Shown piece after piece: positions 31,044 through 41,075 of a stretch of 64,000 bases of DNA. Numbering within the stretch: the first letter of the stretch is position 1; every line of letters starts with the position of its first letter. A program made the translations under genes and the position numbers. Below the pieces are notes generated by a model, which saw only the letters and a list, made by a program, of their open reading frames with translations, did no database searches and was not told where the DNA came from. Source of the DNA: Rhizodiscina lignyota (Eukaryota; Ascomycota; Dothideomycetes; Aulographales; Rhizodiscinaceae); assembly GCA_010015805.1 (NCBI GenBank), contig ML978122.1:2824453-2888452 (forward strand), written 5' to 3'.

Positions 31044-32477
31044 TTATCTGGGTCTCAAGAGCATGACAAGCACGCCAACTACGGTAGCGCCAATGGCTAC
31101 GCTCTCCAATGCCAATGTGGTCATGTCGACCTTGCGAACACTGACAAGACGCTGGCTGAAAAGGTCTTGTAGAGCAGTTTGCCAGCTCTGCATCAACCTT
31201 TGCGCCCTTTCTTGCGGCAGGGCGGTGGGCTTCGACTGGTCGCCAACAGCGCTGAATGCTTCAGCTGCTACCGCTTCGTGGGTTTGATCCTCTACAGCTT
31301 GTAGCTCTTCGTCAGCGGCTTCTTGCATTGGTGCAGCTGATACAGTACCACCGACGAAGTCGTCGGCGGATGTGGCGATCGCAAGGACGTCCTCCTCCTC
31401 GGCCTTCTCAACCTCTTCAGGCGTGGCGCCTTCCGGTAGGACAGCCTCATCAATAGCTTCTTCGATCGCCGCTGTCTGAATCACCCCAGCCTGTGCTTTC
31501 TCATCCAGCGCAGCCTTGATCTCCCGGACCATTCTTCTGCGCCTCCAAGGCTCGAAGACACCAATGTTCGCGAGCAACAGGAAGATATTGAATCCCATAA
31601 GGCCGATCGTGACCCATGTGCTGTTTCTCCTGATAGTATCGCTCCATATCTGCTCCTCATGATACTGTGCCCTCTCCCTCCTCTCGAGCCTCGCTCTGGC
31701 CTCTTCCAGCGCTCGTTCTGAAGTAAGCCACTCTTCGCGCGATGCTTGCACGTTTTGCTCGTTCACATGCTCCATTCTGATGAGGCTCATGTATCTCTCC
31801 AAATCCGTCCCGCTCCATGAGTTCTTCCTCTCCAGCAAACTGACCACCTCTTTCTGTGACGCGAGTTGTTGTGTCTGTGCAACGTCGAAGGCCGCTTTGG
31901 CGGCGGCGACAGAAGCATGTCGTGCCTTGACGAGCTGCTCTTGATCCTTTATCTCCTGCCGCAGAGCCTCAATGCCCGAGTAGTCTGTGCCGGTGTACTT
32001 GTTGATCTCGTGCCCTGCCGTTGCGAGTCGGGCAAGGAGGGTGTCCATGAAGGTATTGAATCGTCTCGTGAACGCATATCTCTGCCTCTCATTGTGGGAC
32101 GGGAGATCTTCTGCTGGCGCAATTTTGACAGCTTCTGGAGCTGTAGGGAGCGGTTTTGGGATGGTAGAAGTTGGAAGGGTGCCTGTAGGTCTCGTAATTG
32201 GAATCTCATCTGCTGTCTGCTCTTCCTTCCGTGCTCGTGCGGACTGCGAAAACCACCTTGACGACCGCGCTGGTGTTCCGATAATTGATATCCGCGTTGT
32301 TCTCCCTACATGACGCGTCCCCTGCGTCGCCAGCGCGCTAAATTGACGTTGTGCGCATACTGGATTCAAGCTGGACCGTATCGAGGTGGCTCGCGGTTGG
32401 ATTCTCCCCAAAGATTCCACGGCGTATTCCAGCAGCACCAGGCGCGATGCTGGGCGGAAGAGGGGTCGCATTTTCAT
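31044..32477 (-). CDS. she9: She9/Mdm33 mitochondrial inner-membrane protein
   Basis: A single-exon 477-residue protein; ATG at 32477. She9/Mdm33 shapes the mitochondrial inner membrane. Seen: an Arg-rich, acidic-poor presequence (MKMRPLFRPASRLVLLEYAV), a long heptad-like coiled-coil region from about residue 140 (GIEALRQEIKDQEQLVKARH) through LEEARARLERRERAQYHEEQ, the conserved IWSDTIRRNSTWVTIGLMGFN leading into a first membrane span ending LLLANIGV, FEPWRRRRMVREIK, an acidic matrix/IMS stretch, and a final span near the C-terminus (ATVVGVLVMLL). Order and length match the fungal family. It is divergent from the PYP1-like gene, sharing 349 bp. Confidence 0.93.
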   Translation of the reverse strand: MKMRPLFRPASRLVLLEYAVESLGRIQPRATSIRSSLNPVCAQRQFSALATQGTRHVGRTTRISIIGTPARSSRWFSQSARARKEEQTADEIPITRPTGTLPTSTIPKPLPTAPEAVKIAPAEDLPSHNERQRYAFTRRFNTFMDTLLARLATAGHEINKYTGTDYSGIEALRQEIKDQEQLVKARHASVAAAKAAFDVAQTQQLASQKEVVSLLERKNSWSGTDLERYMSLIRMEHVNEQNVQASREEWLTSERALEEARARLERRERAQYHEEQIWSDTIRRNSTWVTIGLMGFNIFLLLANIGVFEPWRRRRMVREIKAALDEKAQAGVIQTAAIEEAIDEAVLPEGATPEEVEKAEEEDVLAIATSADDFVGGTVSAAPMQEAADEELQAVEDQTHEAVAAEAFSAVGDQSKPTALPQERAQRLMQSWQTALQDLFSQRLVSVRKVDMTTLALESVAIGATVVGVLVMLLRPR

Positions 32478-32826
32478 TGACTTCGTAATTGACGCTTTTT
32501 GAGCTTCTACATGGTGAATGGTACAGAGCAAATGGACGAGAGTCACTTGTCTTTCAGACCCTGAGTTCTGCACGAAGCTGCGCAGCCCTTGTGCCCTTTT
32601 CCGGCGGCTGAGTTCGGACGGGACCTGGCTGGCCCTGACGTCTGCGGCTCCAAATTTCTCAACGGGCGGCAAAAAACTTGCGATCAACAACATCCGCCAC
32701 GCAATACACCTTCTTATAGACCTTCTTTTGTGCTTGATAGACTCGCCGGTGTTCAATTTCTCTTACATAGACTTTCGGCCTTTTTACACTTTTTTCCTAC
32801 TTCAATTTACATCAGAAGACTCGACC
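32478..32826. promoter_or_regulatory. Compact divergent promoter, she9 / PYP1-like phosphatase
   Basis: Only 349 bp separate the two divergent ATGs, so the genes must share promoter elements. The side near the phosphatase is T/C-rich (TTTTTACACTTTTTTCC), typical of a fungal leader. Specific factor sites not assigned. Confidence 0.6.
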
Positions 32827-33801
32827 ATGGGTTCGATGGGAGAACTGCCGTACTTGCAGACAAACCCGAAATTCATCTTCTTCACCGACTTTGACGGAAC
32901 AATTACACTGCAAGACAGTGAGACCCTACTCTCCTTCTCACATCTCTAGACGCTTGATTTTTTATTTTAAATGGAGTTGCGCTGTTCCGGCTGGATGCAA
33001 ATGCTAAATGCGCGATTCCAGGCAATGATTTTCTGGTGAGCGCCGAGACCGACAACTTTTGAATTCAATTTCTTACTTAGTTAGACCGACAACATCGGCT
33101 ATGGCAAAGAAAAACGAGTCGCAAGTAACCATGCTGTCCTCGAGGAAAGAGAAACTTTCCGCGAGTCCTTCCAGGGCATGATGGACTCCGTCACCAAGCC
33201 TTACGACCACTGTATCCAGCTCCTTGTCGACAACATCCAGTTGGATCCATACTTCAAGGAATTCCTCTCCTGGGCGATTGCCAACAATATTCCGGTCGTC
33301 GTCCTTTCATCTGGAATGGTTCCGATCATCAAGGCGCTCCTCAAGAACCTTGTTGGAGACGACAGCGACTACATCGATATTGTTGCAAACAACGTCGCCG
33401 CTCGTCCCGGCAAGAAGATTGAGGAAGAGGGCGGGTGGGATATCGCTTTCCACGACGAGAGTGGATTCGGCCACGACAAGTCGCTCGCTATCCGACCATA
33501 CTCGAACCTGCCAGCCGAGAAGCGGCCGACGATGTTCTACGCTGGCGACGGAGTCTCTGATCTGTCTGCCGCGAAGGAGACACATTTGCTGTTTGCGAAG
33601 AAGGGAAAGGATCTCGTGACGTACTGCGTAAAGGAGGACATCCCTTTCACGCTCTTCGAAGACTGGGAGTCTATCCTGGCGAAGACGAAGGAGATTGTGG
33701 CCGGCCAAACTCGCGTTGAGGAAGCCGCCCGCGAAGGGTATGAAGCATACAAGAGGGGCGAGGCTGGAGTCAAGGTACAGAACGGATCGCTTCGTCATTA
33801 A
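32827..33801 (+). CDS. HAD-family polyol/sugar-alcohol phosphatase, yeast Pyp1 (YNL010W)-like
   Basis: Exons 32827-32917, 33022-33035 and 33085-33801 give 273 residues; introns are 104 and 49 bp and the middle exon is only 14 nt. Start has ACCATGG context. HAD motifs: DFDGT with nucleophile Asp21 and Asp23, VVLSSGM, the Lys in GHDKS, and GDGVSDLSAAK. Without the microexon the QDSNDFLTDNIGYGKEKR stretch, strongly like YNL010W, would be missing. Yeast Pyp1 dephosphorylates sorbitol, mannitol, ribitol and erythritol phosphates; the bacterial relative MtnX acts in methionine salvage. The polyol role is by homology recalled, not shown here. The C-terminus (EEAAREGYEAYKRGEAGVKV) is longer than in yeast. 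Confidence 0.92.
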
Positions 33802-34424: not shown

Positions 34425-37400
34425 TTACTGGTTAATGTGCTCGAATAGTCCCTCCAAGCGTCCATCAGCAGTAATCAGAATTTCAGCATCTTCCTTCAAG
34501 CCTCCCTTGCCATCCATTTTCAGGGCCTCATCCAGCATCTCAACACACTTTTCCATATCCTCCATCAACTTCTTAACGCCCTCATTCCCTTCAGTCCCTT
34601 CATCCAGGACCTTCCCCCAACCCAAACACAACCCCTTCAGCACCTCTCCTTTCCACCCCTCGATCCGTGGCCACCCCATCCTCACAACATCCCCTAACGC
34701 CCCCACCGCCGCCCTCATGAGCTCCACATGCGCCAGCGCAAACGGATCCGCCAGCACATTACCCAGCAGCGGCACGGTCTCCTTCAAATGCTTCACGCTA
34801 TCGATCCCCTCTTCTCGAACAAGCACACCGAGCTGCGTGATCAACACCTCTGCAACAGCGGGGTGCTCGCCTGCAAACGACATCCCATGCAGAACGCCGT
34901 GACGAATTAGTTTGTCGATTGCTTTGACTTTCGCGTCCCAGATTTCCGGGGCGTCGTTTCGAGCCTCTCCTGGGAACCGGGTTCGCGTAAGCGTTACGAG
35001 CGCCGGGTATGCCGAATTTAGAATTGTGACGGATTGTTCGACAGGCGTTAATGTGGGGAGGTACGAAAGAGCAGGCGTTAGCGCCTCTTCAAAAACGCCT
35101 GCTAACCCCGTGCGCGCGAGCAGTGCCGGGGGCGTCGCGCTAAGTAGTAGTGTGAGAAAATCGCAGCCGCGGGCTTTGAAGCGCGTTTCGTGGTCGTCGA
35201 TCATTGCGAGGATTGGTGGGATGAGAAGAGGCCAGTTTGTTTCTACGGTGGTTGGTGTAAGGGAATTCAGGATCCAGCGCAGGATGTGGAGGACGTAGGG
35301 GTCGTGTTTCCAGGGGGTTTGGGTGGCGGCTTCGGAGGGGAGGGTTGGGTTTTGGGGAAGGGGGATATCGCGTTTTCGCGCTGATGGGGTAACGGAGGGG
35401 TGGGATGCTTGGGAGAAGAGTGGACGGATTGCTCGGCGGAGGAAGTGGGTGATGAGAGAGGAGAGGAGGTCAGACTTTGCGGAGTCTTGAGTAAGCCTTA
35501 GTGTTGAGTTTGGTATATGGTGAAGGTGGACTTACCTTCGGTTTTGGATTTGCTGCTTGGGGCGTCCTTGCCGCCTTTGTCGATGCTTCGTCGTTTCTGT
35601 GCCGATGCGGAAGCCTGGTTGTTCTCGAGGTGTAATTTGACAGCCTCGATGGCCTCAGATGGATCAGTAGCGTCAGGATGACGGAGCTGCCATGCCACCA
35701 CGACATCAAGAGCATCTTTCATCCATGGTCCTGGCGGAGTGGACAAAGCTGTCGAGAGCGCCTTTCCATCCATCAGAGGTTTGATCGCGTAAGCGTTGAG
35801 TAATTCGAGTGCTTCGAGGTGTTTCAGAAAGTTGGTGTACGACAATTCGATAGCTGCAAAGCGTTAGAATCGCTACAAGAATCTCTTTCAAGGCAACAAA
35901 GACTTACATTCTGTCGAATCGGGATTCTGGAAAATCTCATAAAGCAGGCTAAACACAGCCTGCTCCCTCCACGAGGCTCCCCACCGACGAATCGCCATAC
36001 CAAGAGTGTCGCGAGCAGTCGCATCATCTCCCTCTTTACGTTTATGTGGGAATTTTGACTGAGATATGAATTTGTCTTTCAACTCCCGGATCTCTTCGTA
36101 GTTGTGCAAAGATGACTCGACGATGTTGGCAACCTTGTTCGGTGCTTTGAACCCTTCTCGAGCCACTGCCACTGCTAGAGGTACGGGCGTCCTATTTTTC
36201 TTTGGCGGAGCTGGAAGAGGAGCATCTACCCAAGGGATGAGGGCAGCAGAAATCCAAGCTTGATATTGGCCTTCGAAACTAGAGAGAAGTATTGGCCTCA
36301 AGTGGCGGTCGGAAGAGATGTTCTTGGGAGAGATCAGCATCTCAAGTGCCATATATACCGCCTTCCAGTTCTTCGTCTCAGGTACGTAATCTGGCTTGTT
36401 GGTCGGATCTGTGAAGACAGTGTTGTAGAGGTTGAGCTTGTTGATGTATGTCAACGCTCCAGCAGGATCTCTGCCTTTCAGCATTTTCTCGAGCTCTATG
36501 CCAACACGCTCCCTGCTGATCTTTATGCGCAATGCTTCTCTGATGTCGTCGTTATTCATCGCTCCCTGGGCAGCCGAATCTATTTCGAAGTCCAGCCTTG
36601 TTGCAAACCGAATCAGGCGGAGAACCCGTAGAGGATCATCCTTGAATGTCTGATACGGCTCAAGAGGAGTTCGGATGATCTTAGCCTCCATATCATCGAA
36701 GCCACGTTCGGTGAAGTCTTCGATCTGGCTAGTATTGATGTTGTAGAACATGGCATTGACGGTGGCATCTCTGCGCACTGCATCCTCTTCTGGCGTGCCG
36801 AACTCCATTTGAGGATTACGGCTGTCTTCCGTATACGTCTCCTTGCGCAGATTCACAAGATCAATATCCAGGCCGAGGATTTTGGTAGTGACTGTCTCGA
36901 GATGCTTTGACTTTTCTGGATTGGCCTCGATTTTGTAGAGACCACCGCCCATCTTTCGCTTGCCATCTGATTTGCTACTTGACTCGGTGCTCGCCAGACC
37001 ATACTTTTCAGCGTTCCCAGGGATCTCGAGATATTCTTTCATCTTCAGGCCGAATTGGTAGCCGGTCATCTTGTTGATGGCAACATCAATGTCATGACTT
37101 TGGGTATCCAGAAGCTTGTCGCGCACCCAGCCACCAGTGAAACGAAGGACCAGGTTCTCATTTTGAAGTTCTGATGGCGGCTGTGCTTCACTCTCAGGGA
37201 CTGAGGGCGAATCCTCGATATACTCTGCCGTGTCAAGTAGCAAATGTCTTAATGTCTGCTCAACATCATTGAGCTCGATTATTTTCGAGCGATAGCGGTG
37301 CCGCATGGCCATGTTGGTGAGTGACTGTTTGATGAAAGGTGGGCGTGAAGAAGGAAAAGGAAGAGGATGTGAGAAGAGAGTTTTGAGGGGTATTAAGGTT

Positions 37401-37435
37401 TGCACACGCGCCAGACGCCCGCCCAGTACGTTCAT
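34425..37435 (-). CDS. tRNA CCA-nucleotidyltransferase fused in frame to Tti2 (TTT complex) domain
   Basis: Exons 35908-37435, 35536-35853 and 34425-35485 (introns 54 and 50 bp) give 968 residues. Residues 1-616 are CCA1: a mitochondrial-type leader (MNVLGGRLARVQTLIPLKTL), alternative starts at 37312 and 37306 for a cytosolic/nuclear form, then GGWVRD (101-106), DID metal site (115-117), RRDATVNA (221-228) and RVLRLIRFATRLDF. The C-terminal KPLMDGK...PGPWMKDALDVVVAWQLRHP crosses intron 1. Residues 617-968 are Tti2-like: NWPLLIPPILAMIDDH, TPPALLARTGLAGVFEEAL, SYLPTLTPVEQSVTIL. The Tti2 frame has no ATG between an upstream stop near 35532 and 35204, inside the domain. Splicing GAAG|GTAAGT to TCAAG joins the frames exactly. 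If intron 2 is kept, CCA1 ends at 35498 (627 residues). CCA1 adds CCA to tRNAs; Tti2 with Tel2-Tti1 stabilises TOR, ATM and ATR kinases. The domains are confident; the fusion is strong inference. Confidence 0.82.
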
Positions 37436-37495: not shown

Positions 37496-38538
37496 TTGAT
37501 TGCCAACGACGGAAGAACTAAAGGAACCGTGGTGTTTGTCGCGGCAGTCGTTATAGTGTCAAGGCCGCGCTAACCCGTTGTGGTCTGTGCTGTGTTATGT
37601 AGTGGGAGCCGCCAGCACTCACGGCTTTGCAATATTTCTTGAGTTAAAGGTTATAATTAAAATAGTTTTTCCTAGTCACTGCCTTCGGGCATCATGGTCA
37701 AGTTCAACTTGGTCCATTATTTAAGTAAGATTTTATCCTGAAAAGAACAGATACGGTTAACCTTCAACAGTGCGTTTGAGCTGTCAGTACGCCTCTCCCC
37801 TCTGCTAACCCATAGGCGCTCAGTGACGGACAGCACCTTCTCGTAGTACTGGGTGTGAGTAATCTTAAAGATGAAACCAAGACTGTCCAATATTTTTTTT
37901 GTCACCTGTAGGCCTCAAGTTCAAAACCTGCCTCCGGCGTTGTATTTTTTTTCCTCTTTTAATTTTATGCTAGCCTGGAATGGTTTGACATTAGGCGAAC
38001 TTTATTTGCCAAATTCCATATTTGGGAAAGTTAAGACTATTTCAGGCTAGCTTTCAAACGGCGGTGGATTTAAGATGCCAGGAGACCACTTTACTTCCCA
38101 CTTCACTTTCTATCTTACTGAAGAAGGGATATGAATTTTATTTTACAGAGTACCTACGGGGGAATAGATGTATATACTAAACTCGTTTATCTAGATACAA
38201 ATTACACCTTGACTCGTCTTCTATACGCAGATCCACAGTTCAAATAGAAGAAGACGTTCCTTAACATTGGCAAATTATGGGATGAAAGGTGTGGCTTTTC
38301 GTGGCGGCTTAATACCGTTCGCCTGACATTATAACTCCATCCACGGTCCGCCTTGTCATCACTTGGAGACAACCACCGACACTTTAATGCGACCACATAT
38401 TGATCGCATGCCGGCCTCTTCACTCCTTTGACACCGTGACGATCGCAAACCTCTCCCGAAGCTCGTCTCACGATCAATGAGCCTAAACATCGAAATCGCA
38501 CCCCAAGAGCCCACCAAGGGAGTTCGCAGGAGACACTC
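37496..38538. other. Divergent intergenic region, AT-rich with an inverted repeat
   Basis: One kilobase between the CCA1 and TRS85 starts. The stretch 37620-38200 is clearly more AT-rich than its surroundings and has two poly-T runs (near 37890 and 37945). A 13-bp inverted repeat with one mismatch is listed separately. A small decayed element inserted between the two promoters is possible; no transposase or tRNA-like gene could be shown. Confidence 0.45.
37969..38051. repeat. Inverted repeat, 13-bp arms
   Basis: Left arm GCTAGCCTGGAAT (37969-37981) and right arm ATTTCAGGCTAGC (38039-38051) are reverse complements except for one base, with 57 bp between them. The region is AT-rich and non-coding. 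It could be a hairpin or the ends of a very short non-autonomous element; chance cannot be excluded. Confidence 0.45.
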
Positions 38539-41075
38539 ATGACCTCTCCGCCGTATGGCTCACCCATCAAGTCGCCGCAGCTCGGTGCCATCGAATCGTC
38601 GATAGTCTTCCCGAAGCGCAAAGGCGGATCACCAGCATCGTCGCTATCTAACCTCCCATACCGCCGCTCGAATCAATCTTTATCCTCTCTATTCGCGTCC
38701 ACATCATCTTTACCTGGTTCTGGCCCGAGCTCCGGCACAGCAACGCCCACCGCAACAGTCGCGCGAGACTCTGTATTCTCACCAGGCGGGACACTTCGAC
38801 CGCGGTCGCCTGCAGGAGCACCAGTCGTAGACAGCAGTGGACTAAGAGATGTGCTCATACGATCGTTTGCGCCACACGTCGCGGTTCTTGCGTCGGCAGA
38901 CACGGACGAAGTTATACGGCAGAAGGGTTTCCCGGGAGGATTTCTGCAGTTAATACGGCCGTTTGGACAGCAAGTGCAAGGGAAAGTTACTGTCAGAGAC
39001 AGCATTGGGGCGAGCAAGAGTTTCGAGGATTTTGGGATACGGTTCACGGGACTGAAGGATGGGCTGAATCCTCCGAAACCACCTCCGCAACCGAGGCGCA
39101 GCGCAGAGGTTGGAGAGAAGGCTGTTAATGGGGGTGCAGAGCCTTGGGTAGAGTCATTTCCCGCGTGGGCGCGGACAGGTGGTGACGTTGCGCAGATTGA
39201 AGAGCTCGTGGACCGGCATCTGTCGTACGCAGAGATGCAATATGGCGGCTCCATGTCCGACTATCTGAAGCACGATGGCGATGCAGCTGGACGTGCACAT
39301 ACGAGCGGTGCTCCTTCACCTTTCTACACGCTCTATTTTCGCCGATTACTCTCAGCACTTCCTATGTCACCGCACGAGACATTCTCCCATCCTGTCGCGT
39401 GCATCATTGCCATAAGCAGCCGAAACCCTTCCCCGATAGAAGACCTGCGACGGTTGTATAATGCCACAAACACTGGCGACCTGCGGCTACCGCAGTGGGT
39501 CAATAATGAATTCCTACGATACTATGTTCTCGTCCACGACGAGGATCATGACGACATTTCCAAATCCACAGCGTTGTACGAGCAAATGAAGCGCCATTTT
39601 GGATTACATTGCCACCTTCTCAGATTACGAAGCCTGCATGTTCTCCCATCCGACGATGACAGTGTACGGTTACCGACGACTGAGTGGATCTCTGCGATGG
39701 AGGAGCTTACAGAGATTCACCGGCGAGGCAAGTCAACAGCACACTCGAAATCCACAGAATTACGAGAATGAAGGCATTGCAAGAACATCCAAGCTAACAT
39801 ACTGCAACAGAAAGCTCCGAAACTGACGCTGATCCTACCCCCTGTCTTTTCGACTCCGACGTCTCCGCCCTCCGCACTCTCGTCCGCGAATTAACCATGC
39901 AATCCATCATCCCCTCCATGGAACGCTCCCTCACCGCCTGGAACGAACAAGTTCTCTCCCGCCGACGTGGCCTCTCCGGCCGCTTCATGTCCCTATCCAA
40001 ACGCTGGACGCCCTTCGGCAGCTCCTCACGCAATTCATCTGGTCCGCTCGCCGGGCTACAGGCTTCCGGCGGCGGCACCAGCGGCAACTACGACAGCCTA
40101 CAGGGCTTCTACCGGCCCGAGAGTGCGGAGGCGACGATGCGGAAATTGGCGGACTACGCGGTCATGCTGCGGGACTTTAAACTCGCGGCCAGCACGTACG
40201 ATCTGCTGCGCGCAGATTTCAATGGTGATAAGGCGTGGCGCTACTATGCTGGAGCGAATGAGATGGCCGCGATTGCGACACTGTTGGATGCGCATTTGAG
40301 GAGTGGGGCGGAGAAGAGCACGAGTACGAAGAGTAGGCTGGAGGCGGTGGATGGATGGCTGGAGACGGCGAGTTATAGCTATGTTACGAGGTGCATGGCG
40401 CCGTTTTATGGGCTAAGAACTCTTGCGGTGGGAGGTGAACTGTTGAAGATGAGGGGGACGAGTACGGGTGGGGACGAGGCAGCGAAGTGGGGGAGTAAAA
40501 TTCTGGAGGATCGACTTGTCGGACCGGTTGGGCGGCCGTTGTTTATGGAGAGGATTAGTGCGAGCTTTGGGAGTAAGCTCGGACGAGGGGAGTTGAGATG
40601 GGGTGGAAGGAGGAGAAAAGCGGCTTTCTGGGCGGTGTTGGCAGTGGAGAACTGGCTGAAAATGGATAAGGTAGTGCAGGCAGGGAAGATGTTGGAGAGC
40701 GTGAGCGAGTTGTACGGTCTCACGGACGCTGGGGGTGTTGCGGTGCAGGAGGATGAAGAGAAGGGTGGAGGAGCGGAGAAAGCAAAGCCGAGAGAGCTGA
40801 AGTTCGCGGAGATGAAGGACTTCATCGAAGAACTGCGGGAGGCTGTCGTTGCGAGGAAACTGGCTGCCCACGGCTATGAAGGCGAAGAGTCTCCAGAGGC
40901 GGACGAGACGACGCTTGTCGAGGAAGTGAGTGAGAAGCTCGACGCGCGACCACATCGGATGAGCTTGATAGGAATTGCGGCGCCTCCTCCCATGGCTGGA
41001 ATGGACGTTACGCCGCTCAGCCCGCTGAAGGTGCGAGATGAGGAGCCGAATTTCAGGGACGATAGTTTTGAGTGA
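38539..41075 (+). CDS. TRS85: TRAPPIII subunit Trs85 (Gsg1/TRAPPC8)
   Basis: Exons 38539-39727 and 39811-41075 give 817 residues. Trs85 is the TRAPPIII-specific subunit that directs Rab1/Ypt1 activation to autophagy and endosomal traffic. Seen: a Ser/Pro-rich N-terminus; LRDVLIRSFAPHVAVLASADTDE (about 102-124, read in parts) and FGQQVQGKVTVRDS, the family start; HETFSHPVACIIAISS; then after the intron LFDSDVSALRTLVRELTMQS and SAEATMRKLADYAVMLRDF with ASTYDLLRADFNGDKAW and YYAGANEMAAIA. The 83-bp intron uses a GC donor (GAG|GCAAGT) with a CTAAC branch site and CAACAG acceptor. No GT donor nearby restores the frame. The tail is Glu-rich. Confidence 0.92.
39728..39810 (+). other. GC-AG intron in TRS85
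   Basis: Donor G|GCAAGT matches the consensus of non-canonical GC-AG introns in every other position. The branch site GCTAACA lies 21 bp before the acceptor. Splicing here yields IHRRESSETDADP; reading on unspliced gives a stop within about 14 codons. Confidence 0.85.

Follow-up and report, generated by a model that had tools for sequence, protein, structure and literature searches.

We describe a gene on the minus strand of a 64,000-nucleotide stretch of contig ML978122.1 of the dothideomycete Rhizodiscina lignyota, order Aulographales (the whole stretch is called the window below) that encodes, in one frame, the tRNA CCA-adding enzyme CCA1 followed by Tti2. The in-frame fusion of these two proteins had been proposed from the DNA letters of the window (the sequence-only reading), and it is confirmed by the spliced frame, by an existing R. 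lignyota protein at NCBI (P0001, 'tRNA nucleotidyltransferase', 927 aa) and by the presence of both domains in every one of the 120 relatives listed. That the two halves are made as one polypeptide is a well supported prediction. We read the locus as specifying a single bifunctional protein in which a short linker connects an intact class II CCA1 to a Tti2 built of helical repeats and, with the origin and roles proposed below included, we put the probability of this reading at roughly 0.86.

The gene has three exons, which give 2907 nt when spliced, or 969 codons including the stop:

Exon 1, 37435-35908, minus strand: CCA1 catalytic head with neck and body (from PF01743 and the splicing).
Intron 1, 35907-35854, minus strand: 54 bp, GTAAGT..CTAAC..TTGCAG; missing from P0001.
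Exon 2, 35853-35536, minus strand: CCA1 C-terminal tail (GPWMKDALDVVVAWQLRHP) and linker.
Intron 2, 35535-35486, minus strand: 50 bp, GTAAGT..CAAG, at the fusion linker; missing from P0001.
Exon 3, 35485-34425, minus strand: Tti2 domain PF10521 and the stop codon.

As read from the sequence, the CTAAC of intron 1 is a branch-like site and a CTTAC lies just upstream of the CAAG end of intron 2. P0001 is 100% identical to the spliced model over all 927 of its residues and, because of this, the agreement in splicing is far beyond chance. The 50-bp intron joining the two frames in phase and the total of 969 codons, both proposed beforehand, stand as written. The Tti2 frame has a TAA ahead of it and is open from 35531 to 34425, with its first Met codon at 35204 (frame residue 110); the frame scan and Pfam together bear out the earlier observation that no ATG precedes 35204 and that this codon is already inside the Tti2 domain.

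In the spliced protein Pfam places PF01743 at residues 97-255 (E 1.6e-22) and PF10521 at residues 618-866 (E 3.7e-73; 246.9 bits against a curated cut-off of 25.2). The key CCA1 residues lie in the DxD, RRDxxxN, DDxxRxxR and ER motifs of class II CCA enzymes, and they do not vary in any of the 71 aligned CCA1 rows. An AlphaFold2 model has two well-folded halves (predicted local distance difference test, pLDDT, 91), of which the first has the overall CCA-enzyme fold and the second is a helical-repeat solenoid. The first half resembles the CCA1/TRNT1 class II tRNA nucleotidyltransferases 9ns2, 9ns4 and Arabidopsis 9kma in its catalytic motifs, fold and C-terminal tail; 9ns2 (cca1) and 9ns4 (cca2) we take to be the Schizosaccharomyces pombe enzymes. 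The chains of known structure matched by the first half, CCA enzymes and poly(A) polymerases, are 390-580 residues long and have no Tti2 stretch in the match, whereas the R. lignyota chain runs on into Tti2 past the last CCA1 helix. The second half shares PF10521 and the helical-repeat solenoid with the Tti2/TTI2 subunits of the Tel2-Tti1-Tti2 (TTT) complex (7f4u, 7ole, 9wjy), and it matches the solved TTI2 chains by profile at E 2e-10. Compared with those chains, however, fused Tti2 aligns only from about residue 196-215, CCA1 standing ahead of it. TTI2 chains were not among the best 50 rows in Foldseek or VIA-align, where the helical half draws importins and the like, so that this absence is uninformative; a PDB search with the Icmadophila Tti2 as query did not find TTI2 either.

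The fusion recurs in many fungal genomes. A search with the full protein scored 7996 candidates and gave 862 matches at E<=0.001, of which the best 120 were examined; all 120 carry both PF01743 and PF10521, and all 120 are matched by both the CCA1-tail and the Tti2 profiles built in this analysis. The protein search suggested by the sequence-only reading thus returned the same architecture, and the alternative it had allowed for, relatives that always keep two separate genes, is not what was found: separate forms occur in other lineages. Going by the names that we recognise, most of the named fused relatives are Dothideomycetes; three that fall outside that class are Xylona heveae, Sarea resinae and Pycnora praestabilis. 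A search with the CCA1 half of Pycnora, in which fused and unfused proteins can both appear, gave 1850 matches; among the best 120 of these, PF10521 is present in 100 and lacking in 20, and fused Candelina and Candelaria (Candelariomycetes) are added. Among the rows examined the fusion is thus found in Dothideomycetes, Xylonomycetes, Sareomycetes and Candelariomycetes, and no name that we recognise as belonging to Sordariomycetes, Leotiomycetes, Eurotiales or Arthoniomycetes is among the matches listed. With both domains in one frame across independent genomes and separate forms elsewhere, the fusion is, by sequence comparison, an old, widespread and conserved architecture. One fungal-type fused protein, P0087, carries cork oak (Quercus suber) as its recorded source; contamination of that assembly by a fungus is the most likely reason.

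The 20 listed CCA1 matches without PF10521 comprise seven named non-Dothideomycetes, five named Dothideomycetes and eight others. The seven are two Trichoglossum, Geoglossum, Peltula, Piccolia, Watsoniomyces and Thelocarpon, and six of their CCA1s end cleanly a few residues past the last helix (for example AIEEVRKHREELKIN in Watsoniomyces); these lineages are called separate as judged from the CCA1 end alone. CCA1 thus ends normally in the sampled Geoglossomycetes and Lichinomycetes. The Thelocarpon protein (P0194), included in the CCA1 tree below after being cut at residue 545, does not have a clean separate end, an unrelated tail following. A search with the Tti2 part (352-residue query, candidates of about 194-616 residues, 7995 scored) gave 65 matches, 22 of them Tti2 only. 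The named ones are Icmadophila ericetorum (Lecanoromycetes), Exophiala bonariae and E. aquamarina (Eurotiomycetes) and Dissoconium aciculare; judged from the Tti2 proteins alone, Exophiala and Icmadophila have a separate Tti2, unlike the fused one of R. lignyota.

In the remaining 43 of the 65 shorter matches, a single frame spans the CCA1 tail and Tti2. This count, like the others for the junction, is a profile count; regular expressions recovered only 89 of 120 linkers and 17 of 65 joined frames. All 43 come from lgn, jgi or ena sources, and several open with residues that, in our own reading, resemble translated intron; these matches look like intron-blind gene calls, which suggests that the junction in them would be exonic. 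The gap between the CCA1-tail and Tti2 profiles has a median of 13 residues (171 of 212 proteins having both); it amounts to 4 residues in Pycnora, Candelina and Candelaria and to 42 in R. lignyota, and four negative values we ascribe to missing or badly matched parts. The junction stands at nearly the same place across several fungal classes, a few residues shorter in Candelariomycetes. That annotation merged two neighbouring genes into one artefactual model is a reading we reject: a short intron is indeed required in R. lignyota to join the frames, but the join is kept in all 120 listed proteins and lies within single frames in the 43 short matches, and the R. lignyota Tti2 frame lacks a Met that could serve as an independent start.

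Several observations weigh against a single fused product. Intron 2 rests on annotation and homology, and its retention would give CCA1 plus 12 residues and then an in-frame TAA at 35500-35498. A Met is found near the junction in 19 of the 120 full-length relatives. Among Dothideomycetes, Coniosporium P0200 stops inside the CCA1 tail, Cladosporium halotolerans P0201 and Cercospora zeae-maydis P0212 end right past it and Teratosphaeria nubilosa P0202 ends at or just past the junction, all without Tti2, while Neofusicoccum P0189 stops just inside Tti2. Conversely, the model of Dissoconium aciculare, P0160, consists of Tti2 only, and its 318 residues do not include the first helix of Tti2. We read the half-models of Dothideomycetes as truncated or split models, which is unproven; the endings of P0201 and P0212 may reflect kept introns, and P0160 is either a split annotation or a real fission.

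Some of these points would suit a gene that is fused while its products are kept apart by intron retention, an internal start or proteolysis, the fusion then being physically meaningless. The retained-intron stop, the endings of P0201 and P0212 and the 19 junction Mets all speak for it. So does the Tti2-only frame P0121, which shares 72% identity with the Tti2 part: it opens with MLKLNQD, and in a by-eye alignment the window shows LRLTQD at that place, across the splice site. We nevertheless hold it distinctly unlikely. The junction lies inside one frame in the 43 short matches, and in 101 of the 120 full-length relatives no Met able to start Tti2 occurs from the point where the tail match ends through the first 20 residues of the Tti2 match. 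Moreover, the profile gap in the three Candelariomycetes is 4 residues and the Pycnora junction is confidently modelled, leaving hardly any space in which a stop could be spliced out or a protease could cut.

The fused gene is the only source of either protein that we could find in R. lignyota. Its genome (33.4 Mb) has one PF10521 match, in the fused gene, and PF01743 is confined to the same gene (in two stretches); a six-frame search of the genome, exon by exon, found no second Tti2 or CCA1, though a very diverged copy could escape it. The TTT partners are present, TEL2 (PF10193) on contig C9 and TTI1 (PF21547) as a 1050-residue open frame on contig C4. In yeast both CCA1 (PMC9917222) and Tti2 (PMC4889661) are essential and, since both are single copies here, the fused gene would most likely have to serve both roles. 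The N-terminal half would then add CCA to tRNAs, and the C-terminal half would associate with Tel2 and Tti1 to form TTT, the co-chaperone responsible for the maturation of TOR, Mec1/ATR, Tel1/ATM and Tra1; cells would make both activities 1:1 and bring CCA1 into the TTT complex. Yeast Tti2 is found in nucleus and cytoplasm, and low levels of it keep cells viable with slow growth (PMC4889661), which fits the places where CCA1 works.

Membership of TTT is not assured. Residues 1-193 of human TTI2 pull down TTI1, the 194-508 piece being mostly insoluble (Pal et al. 2021, PMC8278493), and fused Tti2 is aligned only from residue 215 of 7f4u_C, a solved TTI2, so that the TTI1-pulling region precedes the aligned part. 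This lack of an aligned counterpart is what would be expected had the Tti2 part left TTT and turned into a helical domain at the C-terminus of CCA1, with a role for instance in tRNA or protein binding. We consider that very improbable, given that the genome has kept TTI1 and TEL2 yet yielded no other Tti2, and that yeast Tti2 is essential; the single-gene Tti2 of Exophiala likewise has only a short stretch ahead of its core.

The start of the protein is the part of the earlier gene model that needs amending. Its 968 residues were counted from the ATG at 37435, and the splicing stands, but P0001 begins 41 codons further on, at the second in-frame ATG (37312, ACCAACATGGC). The context of the upstream ATG (CCTCTCATGAA) looks weaker than that of 37312, and the closest in-frame stop 5' of it is at 37561. 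The segment 37435-37313 would be an optional 41-codon N-terminal extension; it has five Arg/Lys and zero Asp/Glu. At least 35 residues stand ahead of the column of P0001 residue 14 in 12 of 66 fused rows, and several of these contain two or more Mets together with a basic patch of the KRR type (patches by eye). Yeast CCA1 uses several starts to serve mitochondria, nucleus and cytosol. The extension resembles a mitochondrial presequence, and the upstream ATG may serve as an additional start for a mitochondrial form, with leaky scanning past 37435 as a possible route to the two forms; starts at 37435 and 37312 would in this way direct part of the fused protein to mitochondria.

The fusion would have arisen by loss of the CCA1 stop codon and of the spacer before a downstream Tti2 gene, trimming a few CCA1 residues and the Tti2 N-terminus. 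Its distribution touches a disputed part of the fungal tree. Diaz-Escandon et al. 2022 united several classes as Lichinomycetes sensu lato (s.l.), as told in PMC12238968, and Goremykin and Donati 2025 split that group, with Geoglossomycetes and a clade of Lichinomycetes, Piccolia and Thelocarpon branching early, Xylona and Sarea adjoining Arthonio- and Dothideomycetes, and Candelariomycetes sister to Eurotiomycetes plus Lecanoromycetes (PMC12238968). Among the fungi sampled, the fusion appears to cut through 'Lichinomycetes s.l.', Candelario-, Sareo- and Xylonomycetes being fused and Geoglossomycetes and Lichinomycetes not. This pattern fits the early branches and the Xylona/Sarea placement of Goremykin and Donati 2025, the early placement of Geoglossomycetes and Lichinomycetes agreeing with the unfused CCA1 found there. 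Their Candelariomycetes placement fits less well, Tti2 being standalone in Exophiala and Icmadophila.

That same sister relationship (PMC12238968), with the standalone Tti2 of the sampled Exophiala and Icmadophila, speaks for two or more independent fusions, one in Candelariomycetes and one in the line of Xylona, Sarea and Dothideomycetes, and the slightly shorter Candelariomycetes junction points the same way. We built Tti2 and CCA1 trees of 38 chosen rows each, the CCA1 tree having no Eurotiomycetes or Lecanoromycetes. In the best CCA1 tree the fused rows are not one clade, Peltula and Watsoniomyces standing beside Dothideomycetes, and the 'Lichinomycetes s.l.' rows form one side of an 84/25 branch; its signal is not strong enough to tell how many fusions occurred. 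Neither tree rejects one fused clade by the approximately unbiased (AU) test (p-AU 0.468 for Tti2, 0.28 for CCA1). The Tti2 tree groups Candelariomycetes with Xylona (100/98) and these with Sarea (94/36), and it rejects Candelariomycetes with Exophiala, Icmadophila and four other standalone rows (p-AU 0.019, uncorrected for three AU tests). The position of the junction, nearly the same on both sides, also argues against repeated origins. The Pfam PF10521 match starts at profile position 2 in Icmadophila, 21 in Exophiala, 21 in fused Candelina and 33 in R. lignyota; because fused Candelina starts at 21 as Exophiala does, only Icmadophila hints at a Tti2 that was never fused. A single fusion event is favoured, not shown, and separate origins are a possible but somewhat unlikely account.

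The genes on either side are ordinary:

31044-32762, minus strand: She9/Mdm33 family.
33085-33801, plus strand: HAD-type hydrolase.
38440-39771, plus strand: TRAPP subunit Trs85.

ARAGORN, run with the bacterial code, found no tRNA gene across the 64-kb window.

The sequence-only reading knew of no described fusion of this kind, and we found none in the literature searched (Tti2 with CCA1 or tRNA nucleotidyltransferase, Dothideomycetes; PF10521), most subscription journals being outside its scope. In database records the two Pfam domains are already annotated together on single proteins, and P0049 is named for both families. The sequences indicate that two known families are combined in a domain architecture that is new, conserved and undescribed in the literature searched.

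The proposal that one transcript links tRNA end-processing to TOR assembly holds only as one polypeptide with matched supply of the two activities; any regulatory coupling between the two processes is conjectural. In its fullest form, CCA1 would reside in TTT and precursor or CCA-deficient tRNA on the CCA1 half would govern or report the delivery of TOR and other phosphatidylinositol 3-kinase-related kinases (PIKKs) to the chaperone, the tRNA 3'-end state thereby controlling or reporting that delivery, and a single fusion origin would mark a clade of Dothideo-, Xylono-, Sareo- and Candelariomycetes that cuts through Lichinomycetes s.l.; taken together we judge this unlikely. Free tRNA inhibits TORC1 (TOR complex 1) in Saccharomyces cerevisiae, and tRNA precursors sustain TORC1 in S. 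pombe (PMC7563549). The built-in physical link, if true, would be a concrete model for these tRNA-TORC1 links reported in yeasts. The fusion joins two yeast-essential genes (PMC9917222, PMC4889661) across a whole fungal group, and it predicts that CCA1 would co-purify with Tel2 and Tti1 and that loss of one half would be separable from loss of the other by point mutations. As a rare genomic change that bears on the live dispute over Lichinomycetes s.l., it may also help to settle it.
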